Source of the DNA: Methanobrevibacter sp. YE315 | Lineage (GTDB): Archaea > Methanobacteriota > Methanobacteria > Methanobacteriales > Methanobacteriaceae | DNA: 64,000 nucleotides | Reading direction: 5' to 3' | Assembly: GCF_001548675.1 (NCBI RefSeq) | Contig: NZ_CP010834.1 | Location: 779,501 to 843,500, forward strand | Part shown: piece by piece, positions 26,258 to 42,200 of the stretch | Layout: each line of letters starts with the position of its first letter | Numbering within the stretch: the stretch's first letter is position 1 | The notes under the pieces: generated by a model | What the model was told of the DNA's origin: nothing | Seen by the model: only the letters and a program-made list of their open reading frames with translations | The model's database searches: none | Position numbers and translations under genes: made by a program

Positions 26258-26627
26258 TAAGTTAGTTTTAATCACATTATCCTGTTGGTTTTTGAATGTT
26301 TGTATTTAAATTAAACTATGGATATTTCCCTCTAAAAATTATTTCTTTAAGGTATGGGTAACCCTAATAATTATTATATAATTCAATGGATTATGTGTAG
26401 GCCATGACAGTTTATTATATATATCGATAGACAGCAAAAGCTGATTTATCGGATATTTTTTTGAGCGTTCGGTTTCATTTATAAAGGGTTATGTAAAAAT
26501 TGAATTGATGCTTATAATTTGTGTATTTTCTTATATGAAATTTAGTAATTTTAAGTTAAATATGAAAAAGCTTTAATATTAAATTATAATATAATAATAT
26601 CATACGATTATAACGGAGGTGAAAATT
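26258..26627 (+). promoter_or_regulatory. Intergenic region upstream of histone, with hairpin
   Basis: This is a gap of 370 bases. At 26425-26451 a two-part hairpin is formed by CGATA/TATCG and CAGC/GCTG around an AAAA loop, followed by a T-run (about 26455-26461). It may terminate the PAP2 transcript or end a small RNA. Nearer the histone, AT-rich TATA-like sequence (about 26570-26600) precedes a perfect GGAGGTGA (26615-26622). Confidence 0.4.
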
Positions 26628-26963
26628 ATGGCAATTCCTAAAGCTCCTGTAAAAAGGATTATCAAAGAAGAAGGTGCTGAAAGAGTAAGTGCTGATGCAG
26701 TAGACACATTAGTTGAATTCTTAGAAGATGACGCAGAAGCAATCGCTAAAAAGGCAATTGAATATGCAAAATATGCAAAAAGGCAAACAGTAAAAGCAGA
26801 AGATATTGCTTTAGCTATTGGCAAATCAGAAACTAGTGGATCTTCTGTTAAGAATAAACACAATCTTTTAGATGTAATCAAAGATGTATTTGAAGCTGCT
26901 TCAGAAGGAAAAGGCATTGAAGAAATCATTAAAGGATTTATGAAATTGGAAAAACAAGAATAA
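26628..26963 (+). CDS. Archaeal histone with C-terminal extension
   Basis: The gene encodes 111 residues from the ATG at 26628, which sits 5 bases after a perfect GGAGGTGA. The in-frame GTG at 26619 is inside that ribosome-binding site. Residues 1-68 form a standard archaeal histone fold: AIPKAPVKRIIKEEGAERVS, a long central helix DAVDTLVEFLEDDAEAIAKKA, and RQTVKAEDIALAIGK. Most archaeal histones end here. This one continues for about 42 residues with a predicted helical tail (HNLLDVIKDVFEAASEGKGIEEIIKGFMKLEK). C-terminal extensions occur in some archaeal histones, such as MJ1647, where they drive tetramer formation and DNA bridging; whether this tail does so is an inference. It is transcribed alone. 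Confidence 0.92.
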   Translation: MAIPKAPVKRIIKEEGAERVSADAVDTLVEFLEDDAEAIAKKAIEYAKYAKRQTVKAEDIALAIGKSETSGSSVKNKHNLLDVIKDVFEAASEGKGIEEIIKGFMKLEKQE

Positions 26964-27193
26964 ACTGGTGGATATTAATATTAATACGATTAAATTATAT
27001 TGATTTAATTTAAATCTTATAGTTTATTATTCGCAAGTTTTTCTTCATTTTTTTTATTTTTTTATTAAGGTTAATTAGATATTTTTTTTCATTTCTGGAT
27101 TGGAAAACATGAAATAACTGTAGAATTCACAGGCGGTCAATAAAATGATTTGTTGCTCTTTTTGCGCATTTTCTAATCATAGGGAGGTTCAAT

Positions 27194-28210: not shown

Positions 28211-29986
28211 TTAGTTATTCTCTTGAGTTTTCAGTGTATTGTAGTAGTATCCTTTTTTGGCTAAAAGCTCATCATGGTTTCCTTGCTCAATTACCCTTCC
28301 TTTTCCAAGCACAATGATTTTATCGGCATTTTTAACGGTTGACAGTCTATGAGCTACAACAAAACTGGTTTTATTTTCCATCAACTTGTCTAAAGCCTCT
28401 TGAATCAATAGTTCTGTTCTTGTATCTACATTGGATGTTGCTTCGTCTAGAATTAAGATTTCCTTATTGGAGATAATTGCTCTAGCTATTGTCAGGAGTT
28501 GTTTTTGACCTTGTGATAGGTTATCCCCATCTTCATTTAGGATGGTTTTATAACCTTCTGGAAGTTGTCTTATGAAACTGTCTGCATTCGCCTTCTTTGC
28601 AGCTTCAATTATTTCATCCTCTGTTGCATCCAGATTGCCGTATCTGATGTTTTCTTCAATCGTATCTGAAAACAGCCAGATTTCCTGTAAAACCATTCCA
28701 ATAAATGACCTAAGAGAATGTTTGTCATATTCGTTGATGTTTACTCCGTCAATTTTTATCTCTCCCGAATCGACATCGTATAATCTTGTAAGTAGCTTAA
28801 TGAGGGTTGTTTTACCGGATCCTGTTTCACCGATAATGGCTACTTTTTCACCTTTTTTGACGGTTAATGAAAAGTTGTCAATAATCTTTTCATTTTCAGT
28901 ATAACCGAAACTGATGTTATCGAAGGTTATTTTATTATTAAATGATTTAAATTCCTTTTTGGAGGGATTTTCTTCTTCTTCCATATCTAAAAACTCGAAT
29001 ATCCTTTCAGCAGAGGCTGTTCCTGCCTGAAGTAGAGGTATTATTGAGGTTATGTTTTCTATAGGTTCTGTAAAATTATTTAAGAATTCAAAAAATGATA
29101 AAATTCTTCCAATTGACATTGTGCCTTGAAGAACAAAGATTGATCCCAATACTGCTATTGCAACATATCCCAGATTGGAATCCAGGTTCATAAGCGGGGT
29201 GTTGAGATTTGAAAAGAATTGTGATTTCCATTCATGGGCGTACCATTCATCAATCTTTTCATTAAAATCATCGACTGCGCGGTCTTCATAGTTAAGTGTT
29301 CTTATTAATTCCTGGCTGGAAAATATTTCTTCAATTTGGCCTGCGGTACTTCCTTGGATGGATAACTGTTTATCGAAATATTTTTGAGAGAATTTCACGA
29401 CGATTCCAATGAAAAATATTGACAGGAGGGATATGCAAACAACGGCCAATGTCAACCAAACATTAGTGATAAGCATCATTATGAGGGTACCTATGACTGT
29501 AATTATGGCAGTTGTTATTTCAAAAAATGATGATATAAGACCAGTTTCCAGAGCGTCAATATCATTTGTCATTCTTGCTAAAACATCACCTCTTTGATTT
29601 TCATCAACAGAATTCATCGGCATTCCCATTACTTTATTTGTCATTCTTTGTCTTAATGTGTAAACAATTTTGGAAGTCGTTTTCGCCAAATAATATGTTT
29701 TAAGGTATGTAAATACATTGCCGATGAAATATAGTGTTCCAATAATGAGTAATATGTAACATAATCTAGCAAAATCAAGTGTTCCAGTATGGTTAACAAT
29801 ATTGAGGGCTCCTTCAGTGAGAATATCTATTGCGTCTCCTAAAAATATGGGAGTAATGACGGTACATATGACTGTTATTATTGCACAAACGCCTGCAAAA
29901 GTGAATGTAAGTTTATACTCATTCATTAATTGCAAAACATTTTTTATAATTTTTTTAATTCCCATTTTTTCTCCATCGGAAGTCAT
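28211..29986 (-). CDS. ABC exporter half-transporter with canonical ATPase site
   Basis: This 591-residue half-transporter has six membrane helices (about residues 15-330) fused to an ATPase domain. Motifs are Walker A GETGSGKTT, Q-loop in MVLQEIWLF, signature NLSQGQKQLLTIARAI, Walker B ILILDEATSNVD with the catalytic Glu, and H-loop VVAHRLST. It is the catalytically complete partner of the upstream gene; together they resemble heterodimeric exporters such as TM287/288 or LmrCD. Its ATG at 29986 overlaps the upstream TAA by one base. A later ATG at 29965, with GGAG just upstream, would give a shorter start. It lies beside the NRPS and is probably an exporter of the peptide or another drug-like compound. 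Confidence 0.92.
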   Translation of the reverse strand: MTSDGEKMGIKKIIKNVLQLMNEYKLTFTFAGVCAIITVICTVITPIFLGDAIDILTEGALNIVNHTGTLDFARLCYILLIIGTLYFIGNVFTYLKTYYLAKTTSKIVYTLRQRMTNKVMGMPMNSVDENQRGDVLARMTNDIDALETGLISSFFEITTAIITVIGTLIMMLITNVWLTLAVVCISLLSIFFIGIVVKFSQKYFDKQLSIQGSTAGQIEEIFSSQELIRTLNYEDRAVDDFNEKIDEWYAHEWKSQFFSNLNTPLMNLDSNLGYVAIAVLGSIFVLQGTMSIGRILSFFEFLNNFTEPIENITSIIPLLQAGTASAERIFEFLDMEEEENPSKKEFKSFNNKITFDNISFGYTENEKIIDNFSLTVKKGEKVAIIGETGSGKTTLIKLLTRLYDVDSGEIKIDGVNINEYDKHSLRSFIGMVLQEIWLFSDTIEENIRYGNLDATEDEIIEAAKKANADSFIRQLPEGYKTILNEDGDNLSQGQKQLLTIARAIISNKEILILDEATSNVDTRTELLIQEALDKLMENKTSFVVAHRLSTVKNADKIIVLGKGRVIEQGNHDELLAKKGYYYNTLKTQENN

Positions 29987-31695
29987 TATATCGCATCCCT
30001 CAATGTATCGACTTGACTGTTTACAATTTCACGATAAATGTCACAACTTTCAATTAATTCGTCATGAGTTCCACTATCAATGATTTCCCCATCATTTAAG
30101 ACAATTATCTCATCAGCATCCTTAATTGTCGAAATCCTTTGGGATACAATTAGAATTGATGCATCATTCAAGTCTTTCAAGTTGTTTTTTATTATTGTTT
30201 CAGTGTTCATGTCAAGTGCTGAAAAACAGTCATCAAATAAATAAAAATTGCATTTCTTTAAAATTGATCTTGCTATGGATAAACGTTGTTTTTGCCCGCC
30301 TGAAAAATTAGATCCTCCCTGTACTACTTCATCATCCAAACCATTGATGAAATTCACATTGGCCTTTTTTAATGCTTCGTTAATGTCATGGTCGCTTGCA
30401 TTTTCATCAACGAGGAGCATATTGGATTTGATGGTTCCTTCGAATAGCTGGGCTTTTTGCGGTGTCAAACTTATGCTTTCCCGCAGAGCAGTTAACTTAT
30501 AATTCTTGATATTTTCTCCATTTAACAATATTTCTCCGGCAGTTGGATTCTGAAGGCGAGGTATCATATTGAGTATTGTTGATTTTCCGCATCCGATTCC
30601 TCCGATAATGGCTACGGTTTTACTTGGCTCCAATTTGAAATTGATGTTTGTTAAAGTGTTTTTTTCACTATTAGGATATTTGAAATCCACATTTCTAAAT
30701 TCAATGCTTGGTTTTTCTGTACTGATTGTTTCTATTTCACCGTCAACGATACTCACTTCGGTTTTGAATATTTCATTCACGCGCCTTATGGATACGATTA
30801 CTTCAGGTATTTCGGTAAAAAATGTTGCAATCATTAAAAAGGCGCTAACAATTTGGGTTGCATATTGAATAAATGCAAGCAAGTCTCCAACCAATAAATC
30901 TCCTGTTTCAATATGAAAAGATCCAAAATAAATTAAACTAATGGTCATAATGGATAAATGCAATGTCATTAAGGGTCCTAAAAGAAGAATGAGTCTGTAA
31001 CCTTTAATGTTGTTTTCCTTAAACTCAGTATTTACTTTGTCAAATTTCTTTTCTTCATAATCTTGCCTTACAAAAGTTTTAATGGCAGACATTCCTGTTA
31101 TGATTTCGCTGATGTTACTGTTGATTCTATCAGTGATTTCTTGCAGTTTTCCAAAGTATGGCATGACTTTTTTAAAAAGTGGAATCATCAAAATTATAAT
31201 GACGATAAATATTATCAGAACAATCCAGTATAAGTTTGTTCCAAGTTCAAAACACTTGATAATGCCCCCAACCCCAATTATTGGTGCGAATATAATCACT
31301 GTTAAAAGCTCTTCTGCAAACATCTGGATTTGTGAAACGTCCATCAGGATTCTGGTAATCAATGAAGACTTAGAAATATTGTTCAGTTCATGATTGGAAA
31401 ATTTCAATGCCTTTGGATAAATCATTTTTCTTAAGTCTCTCGCATATCCTGAAGAAAACCTGCTTGAGAAAAATGAGACAAGTATTGCAGTAATTGTTGC
31501 AAGAACTGTTATTGCAATCATTTTTATTCCAATATCATAGACATAATTTATGTCTGCATTGGCAACACCAACATTTACAATGTCTGCAGTATATTCAGGC
31601 AGCATTAATGTAAAATATGCCTGAACAATTAACAGCAGCAGAATAAGTATTATTGTTTTGTATTTTTTCAATATTGGTGAAATCAATGAATTCAT
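29986..31695 (-). CDS. ABC exporter half-transporter with degenerate ATPase site
   Basis: This 569-residue half-transporter has six membrane helices followed by an ATPase domain. Walker A is GGIGCGKST and the signature is FSGGQKQRLSIARSI. Walker B ends FYLFDDCFSALD, with Asp in place of the catalytic Glu, and the H-loop His is Gln (IVSQRIST). This pairing of one degenerate and one complete site is the hallmark of heterodimeric type IV ABC exporters. It is the first gene of a three-gene minus-strand unit, starting 515 bases from the divergent NRPS gene. There is no clear ribosome-binding site before its ATG, so the transcript may be leaderless. Confidence 0.92.
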   Translation of the reverse strand: MNSLISPILKKYKTIILILLLLIVQAYFTLMLPEYTADIVNVGVANADINYVYDIGIKMIAITVLATITAILVSFFSSRFSSGYARDLRKMIYPKALKFSNHELNNISKSSLITRILMDVSQIQMFAEELLTVIIFAPIIGVGGIIKCFELGTNLYWIVLIIFIVIIILMIPLFKKVMPYFGKLQEITDRINSNISEIITGMSAIKTFVRQDYEEKKFDKVNTEFKENNIKGYRLILLLGPLMTLHLSIMTISLIYFGSFHIETGDLLVGDLLAFIQYATQIVSAFLMIATFFTEIPEVIVSIRRVNEIFKTEVSIVDGEIETISTEKPSIEFRNVDFKYPNSEKNTLTNINFKLEPSKTVAIIGGIGCGKSTILNMIPRLQNPTAGEILLNGENIKNYKLTALRESISLTPQKAQLFEGTIKSNMLLVDENASDHDINEALKKANVNFINGLDDEVVQGGSNFSGGQKQRLSIARSILKKCNFYLFDDCFSALDMNTETIIKNNLKDLNDASILIVSQRISTIKDADEIIVLNDGEIIDSGTHDELIESCDIYREIVNSQVDTLRDAI

Positions 31696-32210: not shown

Positions 32211-35200
32211 ATGGAATTTTATGAAATAAAATTCAGCTTCAACCATAAGCTGATGGATAAAAAGAGTTTGGATACAGTCTTTAGTAATATTGGGGACTTG
32301 TTTGATGTGCGTTTTGATGAAAATTTAAATTTTTACCGTCAAAAAAATGATGGGGAAATTTACGAACTCAAGGAAGTCAGTGATGAGACAATTGAAAAAC
32401 AAATGAATATCTTTTTCAAATTCACATTCACCGACATTATTGATGTTCCTCTGTATAAATTTTTAGTTCTAAGATGTAATGATGAATTAACCATCTTGGC
32501 AAATATTCACTCTTCAATCTTTGACTACTCATCAGTAAATGTCATCAAGGAAATATTCAACAACCCTGAAGCATCCCATATTCCAAAAGACATAGGGCCT
32601 TACTTTGAAGAGTATGATGCATATCTAAATTCACCAGATTTTAAAAATGATAGCAGCTATTGGCAAAATAAACTTTTTGGTGCTGAAAATTATGTAAAAT
32701 ATTTCAATATAAAATCTAATAATTATAGAAACATCGGATTCTCGATTGAAAACGATTCAATTCTCACTTTTCTAAAAAATCATAAAATTTCCCGATATGA
32801 CTTTTTCACTGCTATCTTTTCACTATATCTGTCTCGCACAGATTCAACTGAAGGATGTCTATTGAAATCATCAATTAATGCTGATGAAGTTGTTTTTGGA
32901 TCACATGTCAAAAATACTTTATTGGTGATTGATTACTATAAAAATGACACTTTCGAAGAGTATCTGAACAGAATACAAAAGGATTATAAAGAAGCCATTG
33001 AACACACCAAAGTGCGTATTGAAGATTATGTTGACAGTTCATTTTATTATGCGATTCACGATTTCACTAATCTAAATGATATTGATGTTAGAAATGGAGA
33101 CGGATCCGCCCTAACATTCAATGTATACAAAGATTCAATTGATATCATATACAATTATGAGGTATTTTCGGATATTTACATTAGATATCTGATAGAAAAC
33201 ATAAAGCATTTGACCGATAATGTTTTGGAAGGCATCAACCAGCGTTGTGGCGATTTGGAATTTTTATCAATTGGGGAAAAGTATGATTTTAATGGGTTAT
33301 ATGAATTAACAGACTCTCAAATGACTATTTATAGGGATTCTCAAAATGGCACCGGCACCAGATATAATAACCCACTCAAATTAGGACTTGGAAATTCATA
33401 CCCTATAGCAAAAATAAAAAAAGCCATAAGCAAATTACTTAAATTACATCCAGTTTTAACTTCACGTATCATAGAAGAATGCCTAATGGGTTTTGATGCT
33501 AAACCTCCGGTAGTGGTCGGTTCAGCTGAAGACATTGAAACCTTTGTCCAGCCTTTTGAACTGAATAATTATCTGTCCCGTTTTTTAATTGTAGAAAATA
33601 AAAATGATGTATTTTTATGTATGGATTTTCACAGTTTGATTTTCGATGCAACCTCATTCAATACAGCAATAAACAGTTTATTGAAAATCTTAAATGGAGA
33701 AAATACTGAATTGGTGGATACTGGATTTTTAAGAGAAATATCATTTGAAGAAACCATTAACAATTCTGAATATAGGGATTACGCTCAAAAGTTCTATGAT
33801 AGCGCATTGTCTGAAAGGGATGAGGTAAATGATTTGATATTTTCCGTTGCTGAAGATAGCTCCAAATCTTATGTTGAACGGTTCAGCATTGATGATGAAA
33901 GTTTGACTTCATTTTTAGATTATCATAATATAACCCACAATCAATTTTTCACAAGCGTCTTTGCATATACATTATCAAGATTTACAGGATATTCTAAAGT
34001 TTTATTTAATTTGATTACAGATGGTAGGGCTCATCTGGGGTTGTCTGATTCTGTAGGAATGTTTTTCCAAACATCTCCAGTGCTGATGGAATGCGATAAT
34101 CAAAGTGTCGAATCATTCATGAATTACTCCAGTGATATAATTGATACTGTAAGCAAATTTGACCTGTATTCTTATCTGGACGTGGTGTTTGACTATCAGC
34201 TGGAAAATACAGTTTCATTTGGTGTTTTGCAGGATATATTTTCGTCTACACTAGATATAGAATTTGAGATGATGGAAAAGGACATGTGGGCTAATTTTTC
34301 AGTGGTGGTCTATTATGCAAAAGAGAATTCATTGGAAATAAGAATTTTCTACTCTGAAAAATACTCTGATAATTTTGTAAAACACTTTGCCAATTCATTC
34401 AAATTAATATTGGAGGGCATCGTTACCGAAGAGATGCTATCAGATATCAATTATATTGATGAATCTGATTTAAAACTTTTAGACAGTTACAATAAAACTG
34501 AATATCCTCTAATGTTTGATGATATTCTTGAAGCATTTAACTATAATTTGTTTAAAGATTTGGGCAGGCCTCTTGTATCATATAAAGATAAGGTTTATGA
34601 TTATGGTCAGGGAGCATTTATTGCAGATAAACTTGCCTGCACCTTAAAGGATGCCGGCGTTAGTGAAGGCGATAATGTTGCTTTTTTAGTTGAAAGATCT
34701 GAATTGTACATGTTCTGTATTTTAGGTGTTTTATCAACTGGCGCTAGATATGTTCCTTTAGATGATGCCCATCCGGATGAACATATTAAGTTCATATTAA
34801 ATGATACTTCAGCTAAGACAGTTATTGTCAGCGATGAAACTTACAATCGTGTCAAATACCTAAATGGTGATACATTTATCATTAACATTTCAGACATTGT
34901 CAATGGAGAAATTGAAGAGTTAGCTAGCTTACCCACTGTTAAATCTGATATTGCATGTATTCTTTATACCAGCGGGTCCACTGGCCTTCCTAAAGGTGTA
35001 AAAATTACAAGAAAAGCAATTTTAAATAGTGTGGAATCCTATGTCCATAAATATAATATGACTAATGAGGATGTCTATGGTTTATTTGCTACAATTGGCT
35101 TTAACACAGCTTCACTTGGAATATGTATAAGTTTTTATTCAGGAGCTTGCTTGTCAGTTGTTCCGGGAGACATTAAACTTGACATGGTAAAATTGAATGA

Positions 35201-36215
35201 TTATTTCATAGAACATGGAGTTACACATACCTTAATCACAACGCAAGTTGGAAAACTTTACATGGAAACTATTGATGAGTCTCCTTTAAGAATTATTACT
35301 GTAATTGGTGAAAAATTAGGGGAATTTGATAATCCTAATGATTATCATTTTGTAGATTCATTCGGACTTACTGAAGTGTTTTCAAGTATTACTTCATTAT
35401 ACAATACCAAAAAAATCGATTCATCTTCGATTGGTATGTGGAATTTCAATACCAAAATGTATATCTTGGATGCGGAATTGAGACGTGTGCCAGTTGGAGC
35501 TGTTGGGGAGTTATGCATTTCTGGTTATCAGATTTCAGACGGATATCTAAATAGGGAAAAAGAAAGCAGTAAAGCATTCGTAAATAACCCATTCAATGAC
35601 AGCAAAGATTACGGTGTTATGTTCCGTACAGGTGACATGGTAAGAATTTTGCCTGATGGAGCATTGGGTATTATCGGACGCCGTGACACTCAAGTAAAAA
35701 TCAGAGGGAATCGTGTAGAATTATCTGAAGTTGAATCTATCATCCGTCAATTGGATTATGTATCTGACGTAAGTGTTCAGACAGTTAAACATGAATCCAA
35801 TTATGAATTGGTGGCATATGTTGTTGCGGATAATAACTGTGACGAGGAAAAGCTCAGGGAAAATGTTCTGGAATATGTAGGTGAAAGCAAGCCTCCATTT
35901 ATGGTTCCATCATATGTAATAAAATTGGATGAAATTCCATTGAATGTAAATGGTAAAGTGGATAAACGTGCATTGCCTGACGTTAATCGTGATAAGCTGC
36001 GTGCAAAATATGTTGCTCCAACAAACGATGTGGAAAAAAGTATTGTAAGGGTATTTAAACTAATATTTGATCAGGATGATATAGGTATTCTTGATGACTT
36101 TGTTCGTCTTGGAGGAGATTCCCTGACAGCCATAAAAGTATTGTCATATCTTGAGGAATATAATTTCTCAACAGCGGATATTTTAAGGTTGCGCACCCCT
36201 CAAGCCATTGCAGCC
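32211..36215 (+). other. NRPS module 1: C-C-A-T, atypical loading unit
   Basis: Residues about 1-360 form a degenerate condensation-like domain; its motif region is HSSIFDYSS, with the second His (100) and Asp (105). A second condensation-like domain spans about 364-745, with DFHSLIFDATS (His 474). A1 spans about 768-1258. Its A4 region reads FNTASLG, with Asn 965 at the place of the amino-group-binding Asp, and GLTE replaces GPTE. By eye the pocket reads N-T-L-Q-T-I-S-S-S-K. The carrier serine is residue 1304. Two C-like domains before the first A domain suggest acyl-group starting. Confidence 0.7.
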
Positions 36216-39200
36216 AGTATACGTAATGATAAGGAATTCGATTTGGATATCTATTCTCTAAAGGATGGCTGCCCATTGAATGAGCCTCAATTAAATGTTT
36301 ATCTGGATATTATTGCTAATGAAAAGGTAAATGCATATAATCTTCCTTTCTTCATGAATATTTCTAATGATTATTCTCTCAGTGATATAGAGGAAGCATT
36401 GAATGTCATGTTTGATTTCCATCCTATATTACGAATGCATGTAAACGATGATTTTGAAGTTCCTTGCTTGGTTAATGGAAGAAAGCCATCAATTTCATTT
36501 TTGCATGCCATTGATAAGGATTTTATTCGTGACTTTTTGACTGAACCCTTTGATTTGTATGACAGTTTATCAAGATTCCTAATTGTTGAAAATGAAGATG
36601 GGTATGTATTATTTGCTGTTTTCCATCACTTGGTGTATGATGCTTCATCCAAACATATATTCAAACGTGATTTGCAGACAATCCTTGATGGAGGTTCCAT
36701 TGCATTAGATGTTTCATTCTTAAAGGTGGCTGCATTTAATCAGCAAATACAGGATACAAAAGAATTTAAAGAGGCTGAAGAATTCTATGCTTCCAGATTG
36801 ACAGATAGTGATGATGCAGGAATCTTATTGGAAGATGTATTGGGCGATGAACAGGGATTCCTTCAGACTACGTTGGAAATGGATAATGATGCATTTAATG
36901 GATTTTTAAAGGAATGCAACATCAGTGAAAATATCTTTTTCACCAGCGTATTTGCTTATACATTATCCAGATTCACTGGTAGCGATAAGGTTTCATTTAA
37001 CATAATAGAAAATGGGCGTGACAGATTCGATAATTTTGACTCTATTGGCATGTATGTTAACACATTACCTATTTTGGCTGACTGTAAAGACCAAAACATT
37101 TCTAGTTTCATGGAACAGATGTCTGATTTGGTTTATGATGTGATGAGACATAACTATTATCCATTTAGATTGCTGGCAAATCAGTATGATATTGATTCTG
37201 ATATTATTTTCCAATATTTGCCTGAATGGATAGAGTATGCTGACAATAATGCAGATAATTTGGATATTGAAAATGAATTAATTCCGTATTTGGATGATTC
37301 AGTTAATGATTTTACTGTTGATGTTAGGAAAATAGATGAAAGTTATATTTTGAATATTATCTACTCAGCTAAATTTTCCAAAGACATGTGCAAAACCTTT
37401 GCGGCAACATATAATCAGATTCTATCTCAGATGATTAGTCATAATAAATTGTCTGATATGGATTATGTTTCCCGGTCTGATCTGGAGCTTTTGGATGCCT
37501 TGAACCATAATGAGCATCTATTGGATTATGACGATATTTTAGATGCATTCAATGATAATCTTGCTCATCATCCTGAAAATAATCTTGTCTCTTATAAGGA
37601 TTCCGTTTACACTTATTCTGAAGGAACATTTATCGCTGATAAAATAGCAAAATATTTAAGGGATTATGACATTAAAACAGGTGATAATGTCTCTTTCCTT
37701 GTTGAACGTTCCGAGCTGTACATGTTCAGTGTTTTAGGTATTTTATCTGTTGGTGCTACTTATGTTCCTTTGGATGATGCTCATCCTGATGAACGTATAC
37801 AATTTATATTGGATGATACTGAATCTAAGGTTGTTATTGTTAGTGATGATACATATGAACGTGCTAAATCACTGGCAAAAGATGCAATCCTTTTAAATAT
37901 TTCAGATATTCTTAAAGAAGGTATTGGAAATTTAGATGAATTGCCTGTTGTTTATGGTGATGTGGCTTGTATGCTCTACACCAGTGGTACTACAGGTCTT
38001 CCTAAAGGTGTTAAAGTTACAAGAAAATCAATTCTTAATATTGCTGCCGTTTATGTTGATAAGTTTGACTTTGATAGTGATGATGTTTATGGTTTGTTTG
38101 CCAATATCAGTTTTGATGCTGGTTCATGGGGTATTTGCCAAACAATTTATGCAGGGGCATGTTTATCAATCGTTCCAGATGAAATTAAGCTAAATGTCCA
38201 AGAATTAAATAAATATTTCGTAGAACATGGTGTAACTCATTCAATGCTTACCACACAAGTAGGAAAACTATTTATGGATGGTATTGAAGACACTTCTTTA
38301 GATGTTTTAATGGTTGGTGGGGAAAAGTTAGGTGACTTTGAAAGTCCAGAAGATTATCTTTTAATTGATGGATTCGGACCAACAGAAACATTCGCATTCA
38401 TATCATCAATCAACAACAACGATAAGATTGATTCATCATCCATTGGTGATATTAACTATAATGCTAAGTTTTATGTCTTGGATAATGAGTTTAGGCGCGT
38501 GCCGGCAGGTGCTGTCGGTGAATTGTACATATCTGGTTATCAGGTTGCTGCCGGTTACTTGAACCGTGAAGAAGAAAACATCAATGCATTCATTGACAAT
38601 CCATTTGACAACGATGAAGATTATAGCACTTTATATCGTACTGGAGACATGGTGAGGTTGTTGCCGGATAGAACACTGGCTATCGTTGGTCGTCGTGACA
38701 GTCAAGTTAAAATCAGAGGAAACCGTGTGGAACTATCTGAAATCGAAGCAGTAATACGTGAAATAGATTATGTGGAAGATGTAACTGTTCAAACAATTAA
38801 ATTAGGCACCAACAATGAAATTGTAGCTTATGTTGTTGTATCAAAGGAATTTGACAGTGATGTGCTTAAAGAGAATATATCTGATTATGTCAATGAACGT
38901 AAGCCTGAATATATGGTCCCGTCATTTGTTATTGAATTGGATGAGATTCCATTGAATGTAAACGGTAAAGTTGACAAGCGTGCATTGCCTGATGTTGATA
39001 TGAGTAGTTTACGTGTGGAGTATGTTGCTCCTACCACTGAGGCTGAAAAATTAATTGTACATGCATTTGAAGAAGTCTTCAATCAGGACAATATTGGTGT
39101 TTATGATGATTTCACTCGTCTTGGTGGTGATTCATTAACTGCAATTAAAGTGCTGTCATATCTTGGCGACTATAATGTTACTGCAGCAGACATTTTGAGT

Positions 39201-42200
39201 CTGCGCACTCCATTTGCAATTGCCAAAAGCATTAAAGAAAATACATTGGATTTGGATATTTACACTTTAGAAGAGGGATGTCCTTTAAATGAACCTCAAC
39301 TGAATGTATACTTGGATATAATTGCAAATAACAAATTTAATATTTATCTTATTCCAAGCATTATGGATATAGCTAAGGATTATGATATTGAAGATATACT
39401 GGAAGCGTTGGATGTTATGTTGGATGTTCATCCGATTTTAGGTACATGCATAAGCGACGAAAATGAGATACCTTGCTTGATAAAAGGATTCCGACCATCT
39501 ATTGAATTTAAATCATATGCTGCTGATGATTATATCATTAAATTTTTAACAAAACCATTTAATTTGTATGAAAGTTTGTCCAGATTCTTGCTTGTTGAAG
39601 AAGATGAGGGTTATTCATTATTTGCTGTTTTCCATCATATAATCTTTGATGCATTATCTGATGGTGTATTTAAACAGGATTTACAAACAATACTTGATGG
39701 TGGCAGTGTAGAAGTTGATGATTCATTCTTAAAAGTTTCTGCTTTTAGTCAACAAATACAGGATACTGATGAATATTCTGATGCGAGTGTTTTCTATGAT
39801 GCAATGTTGGCGGATGTGGATGAAGTAGGTGGATTATTGGACAGTGTTGGTGGTGATGGTCCTGATGTTGTTCAATTGGATTTGGAATTAGATTTAACCC
39901 AATTCAAATCATTCTTAAGTAAATATGAGGTTAGTGAAAATATATTATTTACAGGTGTGTTTGCATATACGTTATCCAGATTTGTCGGTAGTGAAAACGT
40001 ATTTTTCAATATAACTGAGAATGGGCGTGGCAGATTCAACAATTACAATGCAATAGGAATGTACGTAAATACATTGCCGATGATAGTTGATTGTAAAGAC
40101 CAAAATGTCTCTGATTTCATGGAATATATGTCTGATTTAGTATATGATGTAATGAAATACAACTATTATCCATTCAGATTGCTTGCAAAAGAATATGGTA
40201 TTGATTCAAGCATTTTATTCCAATTCATGCCGGAATGGATAAGGGATAATGATGCAGACTACAGTGAATTTGAATCTATGGAAGAAGATAATGAATCTGA
40301 AAATATAGATGAGTTAATTAGTGATTTAAGTATTGATATTATTCAAAAAGGCAGGTCTTATTCGATATGTCTTCAATATTCGGATAAATATTCCGGAGAT
40401 GTGATGAATAGATTTGCTGAATCTTATAAAGCTATTCTATCACAAATAATCTGTGTTGATAAGTTAAGTGAAATTAATTATGTTTCAAAATCTGATTTGG
40501 AACTTTTAGATACATATAATCAAACAGAGCATGCTTTAGATTATGAAGATCTTCTGGATGCATTCAATGACAATCTTGCTAAATATCCGGATAGCAATCT
40601 GGTATCATATAATGAGAATGTTTATACTTATGCTGAAGGTGCGTTTATTGCTGATAAGCTGGCCAATACATTAAAGGATTTGGGTGTTGAAAATCAAGAT
40701 TGTGTCGCATTCCTTGTGGAACGTTCAGAGTTATATATGTTCAGTGTTTTAGGAATTTTGTCTGCGGGTGCAGTTTATGTTCCTTTAGATGATTTGCATC
40801 CTGATGAACGTATACGATTCATTTTAGAGGATACTAGTTCCAAGGTTGTCATTGCCAGTGATGGAACTTATGAACGTGCTAAATTGTTAACTAATGATTC
40901 AGTCATCTTAAACATCTCAGATATATTGGGTGATGATATTGGAACATTACATAGCTTGCCGATAGCTTATAATGATTTGGCTTGTATCTTATACACCAGC
41001 GGTACTACCGGTTTTCCTAAAGGTGTAAAAATCACCCGTAAGTCAATTCTCAACATTTCACAATATTATCGGGATATTTATGGTCTTTTTAGTGATGATG
41101 TTTATGGTTTGTTTTCTGCAATCGGTTTTGACGTAAGTAGCTTTGTCATTTCAGCAGTAATATATGTCGGAGCCTGCTTATCAGTCATTCCAGAAGACAT
41201 TCGCTTAGACATGCTTGAACTGAATAAGTATTTTATGAATCAGAATGTTTCTCATGCTTTTATTACTACTCAGGTTGGTAAATATTTCATGCAAAGTGTT
41301 GATGAGACATCATTAGATGTCCTGCTTGTTGCAGGTGAAAAATTGGGTGAATTCAAAAGTCCTAATCACTATCAATTAGTTGATGCGTATGGTCCGACTG
41401 AAGCATTTGCATTCGTATCATCTATAAACAATAACGATAAGCTTGATGGGTCTTCAGTTGGTATGTTAAGTCTTAACACTAAAGCTTATATTTTGGATAA
41501 TCAGCAGCGCCGTATTCCTGTGGGTGCTATTGGTGAATTGTACCTTGCCGGTTATCAGGTTGCTGCTGGTTACTTGAACCGTGATGAGGAAAATGCCAAA
41601 GCATTTATTGAAAACCCATTCAGTGATGAAGAAGAGTATAAAACTCTGTATCGTACAGGGGATTTGGTAAGGTTATTGCCGGATGGTTCTTTAGGTATTG
41701 TTGGTCGTCGTGACAGTCAGGTCAAAATTAGGGGAAATCGTGTGGAATTATCTGAAATCGAAGCTGTTATACGTGAAATAGATTACATTGATGATTTGAC
41801 TGTTCAAACAATTAAAAACGGTACAAATAATGAATTGGTTGCTTATGTGGTTGTATCTGATGAATTTGATGGTGATGATTTAAAAGAAGACATCTCTAAT
41901 TATGTTGATGAGCGTAAACCTAAGTATATGATTCCTTCATTTGTCGTTGAATTGGATGAGATTCCATTGAATGTAAACGGTAAAGTTGACAAGCGTGCAT
42001 TGCCTGATGTTGATGTAGACAGTTTACGTGTGGAGTATGTTGCTCCTACCACTGAAGCTGAAAAATTAATTGTACATGCATTTGAAGAAGTCTTCAATCA
42101 GGACAATATTGGTGTTTATGATGATTTCACTCGTCTTGGTGGTGATTCATTAACTGCAATTAAAGTGAGGTCTTATCTTGGTGACTATAATGTTACTGCG

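Follow-up and report, generated by a model that had tools for sequence, protein, structure and literature searches.

A Methanobrevibacter histone with a C-terminal tail apparently derived from the GTPase NOG1

INTRODUCTION

One of the histone genes of Methanobrevibacter sp. YE315 encodes a protein that continues well beyond its histone fold. Where does such a tail come from, and what would it do to a protein that binds DNA? We examined the gene within a 64,000-nt stretch of the genome (the window) and compared it with relatives in 138 genomes of the same family. Genera are referred to by working labels, of which g1 is the genus of the window and g10 a sister genus.

LAYOUT OF THE GENE

The gene and its parts are listed below by window coordinates, with the strand in parentheses.

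26628..26963 (+): tailed histone gene, 111 aa, ATG at 26628
26615..26622 (+): ribosome-binding site, GGAGGTGA, identical in sister genes
26538..26627 (+): promoter and leader, resembling the 90 nt upstream of a tail-less histone of genus g10
26628..26822 (+): histone fold, residues 1-65, with Tyr at 49; PF00808 over 2-64
26823..26858 (+): linker, residues 66-77, 12 codons, unconstrained (pN/pS 1.52)
26826..26897 (+): piece 1, from NOG1; residues 67-90 = NOG1 252-275, region of helix alpha3; 54/72 nt and 13/24 aa identical to the NOG1 of genome G061; also aligned by hhalign
26898..26960 (+): piece 2, from NOG1; residues 91-111 = NOG1 312-332, G5 loop and helix alpha5; 50/66 nt identical to the NOG1 of genome G055, the stop codon being counted in the 66
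26964..27018 (+): remnant of the C-terminal coding end of NOG1, untranslated, 3' of the new stop; score 45, equalled by 0 of 156 control 3' flanks

By fold profile, the product is an archaeal histone of the HMf/nucleosomal kind: residues 2-64 match PF00808 with 62 bits (cut-off 21.4) and residues 4-63 match NF043032 with 87 bits (cut-off 50). In a seven-row alignment of the tailed genes, R19, R52, T54 and D59 are invariant. We take R19, R52-T54 and D59 to be residues that contact DNA, and these contacts appear to be intact. Some of these roles are also described in PMC10516927.

A preliminary description of the gene placed the end of the fold near residue 68 and counted a tail of 42 residues, which is right to within a few residues; the fold ends at about 64-65, and 46 residues (66-111) remain. 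The tail was also described as a Leu/Ile-rich helical segment. It is indeed a helical extension, but rather than one helix it comprises the variable linker (66-77) followed by two amphipathic helices, at about 80-92 and 97-107. Each helix has one hydrophobic face (moments 0.58 and 0.66; 0.44% and 0.40% of shuffled sequences are as high). AlphaFold2 (AF2) monomer models, calculated from six rows and from one row, both contain two tail helices (80-92 and 97-108 in one, 80-93 and 97-107 in the other), at low confidence (mean pLDDT 48.7 and 48.2; pTM <0.3).

The ribosome-binding site, initially singled out as very strong, is indeed strong, yet nothing unusual: the same one precedes the closest tail-less histones, and the three paralogues in the same genome have GAGGTG or GGAGGTG, so we do not regard it as a special feature. 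All three paralogues lack a tail. The genome is a single contig of 2,273,296 bases, 99.96% complete, and a looser search of it (E 10), which could miss a gene, returned no fifth histone, including any of the divergent coiled-coil type. The 90 nt upstream of the tailed gene align with those of the tail-less histones of G061, G055 and G025 with scores of 49.0, 48.5 and 37.5, compared to only 14.0, 17.5 and 25.0 for the three paralogues (raw scores, for AT-rich sequence).

DISTRIBUTION OF THE TAIL AND SELECTION ON IT

A search with a profile of the tail found it in 11 genes and one relic among the 138 family genomes. Counting the relic, nine of the 12 carriers belong to g1 and three to g10; the six named records all come from uncultured Methanobrevibacter, including one from goat jejunum. 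A comparison with other Methanobacteriales histones had been suggested at the outset; within the family, the tail is conserved in related genes.

A tail present in so few genomes, 12 of 138, could be left over from a chance fusion and have no selective value. Pairwise comparison of the 11 tailed genes (55 pairs) gives a pN/pS of 0.38 in the fold and 1.52 in the linker (66-77), whereas the helices (78-109) have 0.50, with a codon bootstrap range of 0.35-0.72. Purifying selection therefore acts on the helices but not on the linker. The reading frame is also intact in 10 of the 11 genes. The remaining gene, in G055, has an internal stop, and G123 keeps just a relic; both would suit a neutral leftover, but with the helices constrained and the frame so widely kept, we consider that reading very unlikely.

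In the G055 gene (loci L009/L039), the stop is one in-frame TAA inside the fold; together with a fragmented gene for a nonribosomal peptide synthetase (NRPS) next to it, it reflects either decay or sequencing error. In the G123 relic (L055), the tail helices lie in an open stretch of 41 codons with no in-frame histone fold ahead.

SOURCE OF THE TAIL

The tail profile also gave 16 weak matches (model positions 2-25 or 24/25-44), spread over 13 genomes from g10 and g7. When the loci were read, all 16 proved to be the same gene, NOG1, one copy being a fragment. NOG1 was identified by PF17835 and PF06858, both above cut-off, and its best solved relative is 2e87 (PH1320; E 1.6e-86). In 151 genomes from the phylum, the tail profile at E 0.01 matched nothing but the 11 tailed histones, the relic in G123 and NOG1 genes, the last with the 16 matches. 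Judging from these and the following comparisons, the tail is a piece of NOG1, a GTPase of ribosome biogenesis.

In NOG1, SETCGYLLENQYNLLEEIRNIFDA is followed by 36 residues and then AAEGEGIDEIIKLIMKVEKRE; the similar tail sequence SETSGSSVKNKHNLLDVIKDVFEA is joined directly to ASEGKGIEEIIKGFMKLEKQE. The DNA tells the same story. In a blastn search of about 733 kb, the tail (26823-26960) has two collinear matches in G049 (78.1% over 73 nt, E 4e-11; 78.5% over 65 nt, E 2e-9) and matches in G033 (locus L056) of 82.5% over 63 nt (E 3.5e-12) and 73.6% over 72 nt (E 3e-6); the two collinear matches to NOG1 of g10 genomes flank an exact deletion of 36 codons. Among the NOG1 genes of g1, the tail matched only that of G115 in this search, over 29 nt. 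At the protein level, hhalign aligns the tail with nine g10 NOG1 proteins in a single path with a 36-column gap (probability 96%, E 3.8e-9). We also scored the tail in two pieces against three g10 NOG1 proteins. The best score, 132 (G055), was reached by none of 3000 shuffled tails (mean 48, sd 5.1, maximum 77); the NOG1 of the same genome as the tail scores 92, likewise above the shuffles.

One matched stretch of NOG1 is located between the DAILFIFD strand and the NKMD motif; the other runs on from the SA (G5) motif. Going by the usual order of elements in a G domain, we take them to be helices alpha3 and alpha5, and the missing part to be beta5-alpha4-beta6. Although the tail is homologous to residues 252-275 and 312-332 of this GTPase (PF17835 + PF06858; PDB 2e87), it comprises those stretches only, without the G1, G3 and G4 motifs; the tailed histone has no P-loop, switch regions or NKxD and is not a GTPase.

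Other sources were considered. Single weak matches of the tail alone to DIM1 (Pfam, E 0.031) and FakA (NCBIfam, E 0.003, 16 bits compared to a cut-off of 975) were taken as chance. A scan of viral contigs for extra histones gave 102 pattern matches and no relative. The tail had also been likened to the C-terminal extension of the Methanococcales histone MJ1647, and a divergent form of that tetramerisation module would have a similar place, length and two-helix plan. However, the MJ1647 structure (8bdk) aligns over residues 3-61 only, whereas two pieces of the tail match NOG1 at 78-82% DNA identity. With the tail homologous to NOG1 in both protein and DNA, we reject homology to the MJ1647 module and give common descent practically no credence. 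What survives of the comparison is the selected C-terminal extension with two amphipathic helices, an arrangement resembling the MJ1647 module described in PMC10516927; it may serve as an analogy for function, but not for descent.

SOURCE OF THE HISTONE HALF

A tree of the histone fold was calculated from 53 of 54 chosen loci (L106 gave no row). The 11 tailed genes form one clade (96/96), which groups with tail-less histones of g10 (96/92), and the native counterpart in the YE315 genome (L003) falls in a different clade (100/96). With 63 columns, the tree is weak for deep forks. The sequences nevertheless point to a tail-less, capstone-type g10 histone as the closest relative of the histone half.

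Position 49 is occupied by His in most archaeal histones, but by Tyr here and by Y, L, V or A, never His, among the tailed genes; the tail-less sisters have Ile in g10 and Leu in g5. Modelling of capstone histones in Methanobrevibacter and Methanosphaera has linked loss of His49 to weak contact between dimers (PMC7776873), and the histone half resembles those proteins in grouping with histones without His49. That modelling, as described there, excluded terminal extensions, whereas the tailed histone has one. Whether its dimer-dimer contact is weakened is uncertain, since capstones have an acidic or hydrophobic residue at this position and Tyr49 is neither acidic nor clearly hydrophobic.

In g10, the two presumptive parents are close together: the tail-less histone lies about 2 kb or less from NOG1 in 10 genomes, which are all of those with both genes listed on one contig. 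Four of the five pairs that were read are convergent, and the pair in G025 has the same direction. At the g10 loci L036, L038 and L040, the histone, a gene of about 200 aa and a 223-aa gene beside NOG1 vary in order and direction. Because the arrangement differs between genomes, this spot seems to rearrange often.

THE JOINT AND THE UNTRANSLATED REMNANT

G100 and G115 have GCT ATT GAY AGT TCA AAA at the joint. The tail-less histone of G055 ends with GCT ATT GAC AAA GAA TAA, and NOG1 of the same genome reads ATT TTT GAC AGT TCA GAA ACT at the corresponding region. Comparison of these codons shows that the NOG1 frame was kept and that TTGAC is common to both genes at the joint.

Past the stop codon of the tail, the YE315 sequence aligns with the rest of NOG1 and reaches beyond the NOG1 stop (the aligned letters of G055 NOG1 are ACTGAAGAAGATGAATATGAAGATGATGAGAATTACTTCGATTTAACCTAATCTT). 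The remnant was scored in 10 of the 11 tailed genes, G121 being left out. Scores are 45 for YE315, 53 for G025 and 44 for G061, all above the highest of the 156 control 3' flanks (42). The score is lower in G100 (41, 1/156 controls as high) and G066 (37, 2/156); the remnant is weak in G055 and G130 (32, 8/156 each) and not significant in G122 (24, 52/156), G115 (23, 58/156) and G133 (22, 71/156). When the sequences were shuffled (500 times each) and compared to three NOG1 genes, 0, 1 and 0 shuffles were as high for YE315 and 0, 2 and 1 for G025; the same test is weaker for G061 (0, 4 and 32) and fails for G055 (16, 39 and 270). The last 20 residues of G055 NOG1 have a net charge of -9, and this acidic end is left untranslated by the new stop.

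THE NEW SITE AND TRANSFER BETWEEN GENERA

The three g10 copies share neighbours: a 192-aa gene accompanies the tailed gene in G025, G061 and G055, a symporter gene in G025 and G055, and a 444-aa gene in G025 and G061. The 192-aa gene occurs at >=84% identity in 8 of 13 searched g10 genomes without the tailed gene. Six of these eight were read: it adjoins the 444-aa gene in G010, G033 and G039, and another gene or frame lies between the two in G058, G052 and G067; in none of these six tail-less genomes is there a histone between them. The places of the tailed gene in g1 have some neighbours in common, piecewise.

A joint tree of the fold and the NOG1 pieces (25 rows, 330 nt) puts the tails with g10 (92/97) and rejects their grouping with native g1 genes (p-AU 0.021, for a group named after earlier trees had been seen). 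The NOG1 pieces alone also put the tails with g10 (88/89) but are compatible with a donor from g1 itself (p-AU 0.289). Since only the joint tree rejects the native grouping, lateral transfer of the tailed gene from g10 to g1 is likely: supported, but not proven. The YE315 copy is outside a 100/97 group of the other seven g1 tails, and all eight form a clade in the best tree (77/64).

The window also contains an NRPS gene of 2596 aa with condensation, AMP-binding and carrier domains (32211-40001, +). Related NRPS sequence, in several pieces, adjoins the tailed histone in G055 (L039); thus, the histone and the NRPS may have travelled together. Between them in the window (28211-31695, -) are two adjacent frames with a 1-base overlap that look, by eye, like ABC-exporter halves.

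PROPOSED ORIGIN AND FUNCTION

On the evidence of the sequences, one copy of a capstone-type histone gene became fused, in frame, with the 3' end of NOG1, at the shared TTGAC in codons 64-65. As a possible route we propose a tandem duplication bounded by NOG1 on one side and the histone on the other, which would give this joint in one step where both genes have the same direction. The 36 codons for beta5-alpha4-beta6 were lost, in the fusion step or otherwise, and the stop codon moved upstream, leaving the acidic NOG1 end untranslated. The fused gene came to lie at its new site in g10 and probably passed from there to g1.

The histone half would bind DNA as a dimer, with the ordinary contact between dimers weakened. 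In a G domain, hydrophobic faces such as those of the tail helices pack on the beta sheet and are buried. In the tailed histone that sheet is gone, so pairing of the helices with each other is the natural guess. Held on a flexible linker, they would connect dimers to form tetramers, and these would bridge or loop DNA instead of lengthening a wrapped fibre. We consider this explanation as a whole, with the NOG1 fusion as origin and paired helices joining dimers to bridge DNA, to be somewhat probable; its origin part is shown by the sequences, and its functional part is inferred.

Two other readings accept the same origin. The helices might bind another partner, such as a protein of chromatin, replication or ribosome assembly, which NOG1 perhaps touches too. 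Their derivation from NOG1 and the selection on them would fit, but two short stretches of the G domain cannot rebuild the NOG1 surface, and the conserved positions are the hydrophobic ones that a G domain buries; we consider such a partner improbable. Alternatively, the tail might be a steric cap that folds back on its own dimer and blocks hypernucleosome stacking, making a stronger capstone. The histone half does come from a lineage without His49, amphipathic helices could pair within one dimer as in the MJ1647 crystal, and PMC10516927 indicates that the MJ1647 module would clash in the hypernucleosome core. An unconstrained linker equally allows pairing across dimers, however, and we regard the cap as unlikely, if less so than another partner.

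RELATION TO KNOWN HISTONES

Bridging by paired C-terminal helices has precedents. According to PMC10516927, MJ1647 joins dimers and bridges DNA instead of wrapping it. It and the other Methanococcales histones of the HmvA type (PDB 8bdk) resemble the tailed histone in having a fold and then a short two-helix C-terminal module, but the tailed histone, known here from sequence, has a tail derived from NOG1, a canonical rather than divergent fold and a variable linker, and belongs to another archaeal order. In coiled-coil histones such as HMfC, C-terminal helices are likewise proposed to join dimers and bridge DNA; for HMfC, bridging is shown and the tetramer is predicted (PMC11390915). As described there, a long helix ends the fold of these proteins, whereas the tailed histone is predicted to have a canonical fold, a linker and two short helices, as in both low-confidence AF2 models; the variable linker of the alignment points the same way. 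The same source describes Rab GTPase histones of Lokiarchaeota, which also join a histone to GTPase sequence, but in them the Rab domain is N-terminal, and here two NOG1 helices are C-terminal. In titles, abstract openings and passages from the mostly open-access literature on archaeal histones, NOG1, fusion and transfer, we found no account of a NOG1-derived histone tail or of its origin.

IMPLICATIONS

The tailed histone may represent a new class of DNA-bridging histone that arose independently of the Methanococcales and coiled-coil types, helices of a GTPase added to a capstone-type histone having become an oligomerisation module in a gene that spread laterally between two methanogen genera; we hold this to be a real possibility, at slightly less than even. 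The origin of histone tails and oligomerisation modules is usually too old to read. Here one can still recognise the donor, the recipient, the gene-free sites, the joint and the untranslated remainder of the donor, and selection acts on the new module, so that both the assembly of a new histone type and its retention by selection are visible. Because relatives of the ancestral parts survive as genes, a comparison of the tail-less sister with the fusion, both intact and stripped of its tail, can test how chromatin function changed. If the explanation is true, a bridging histone can arise in few steps from parts that lie close together in a genome.
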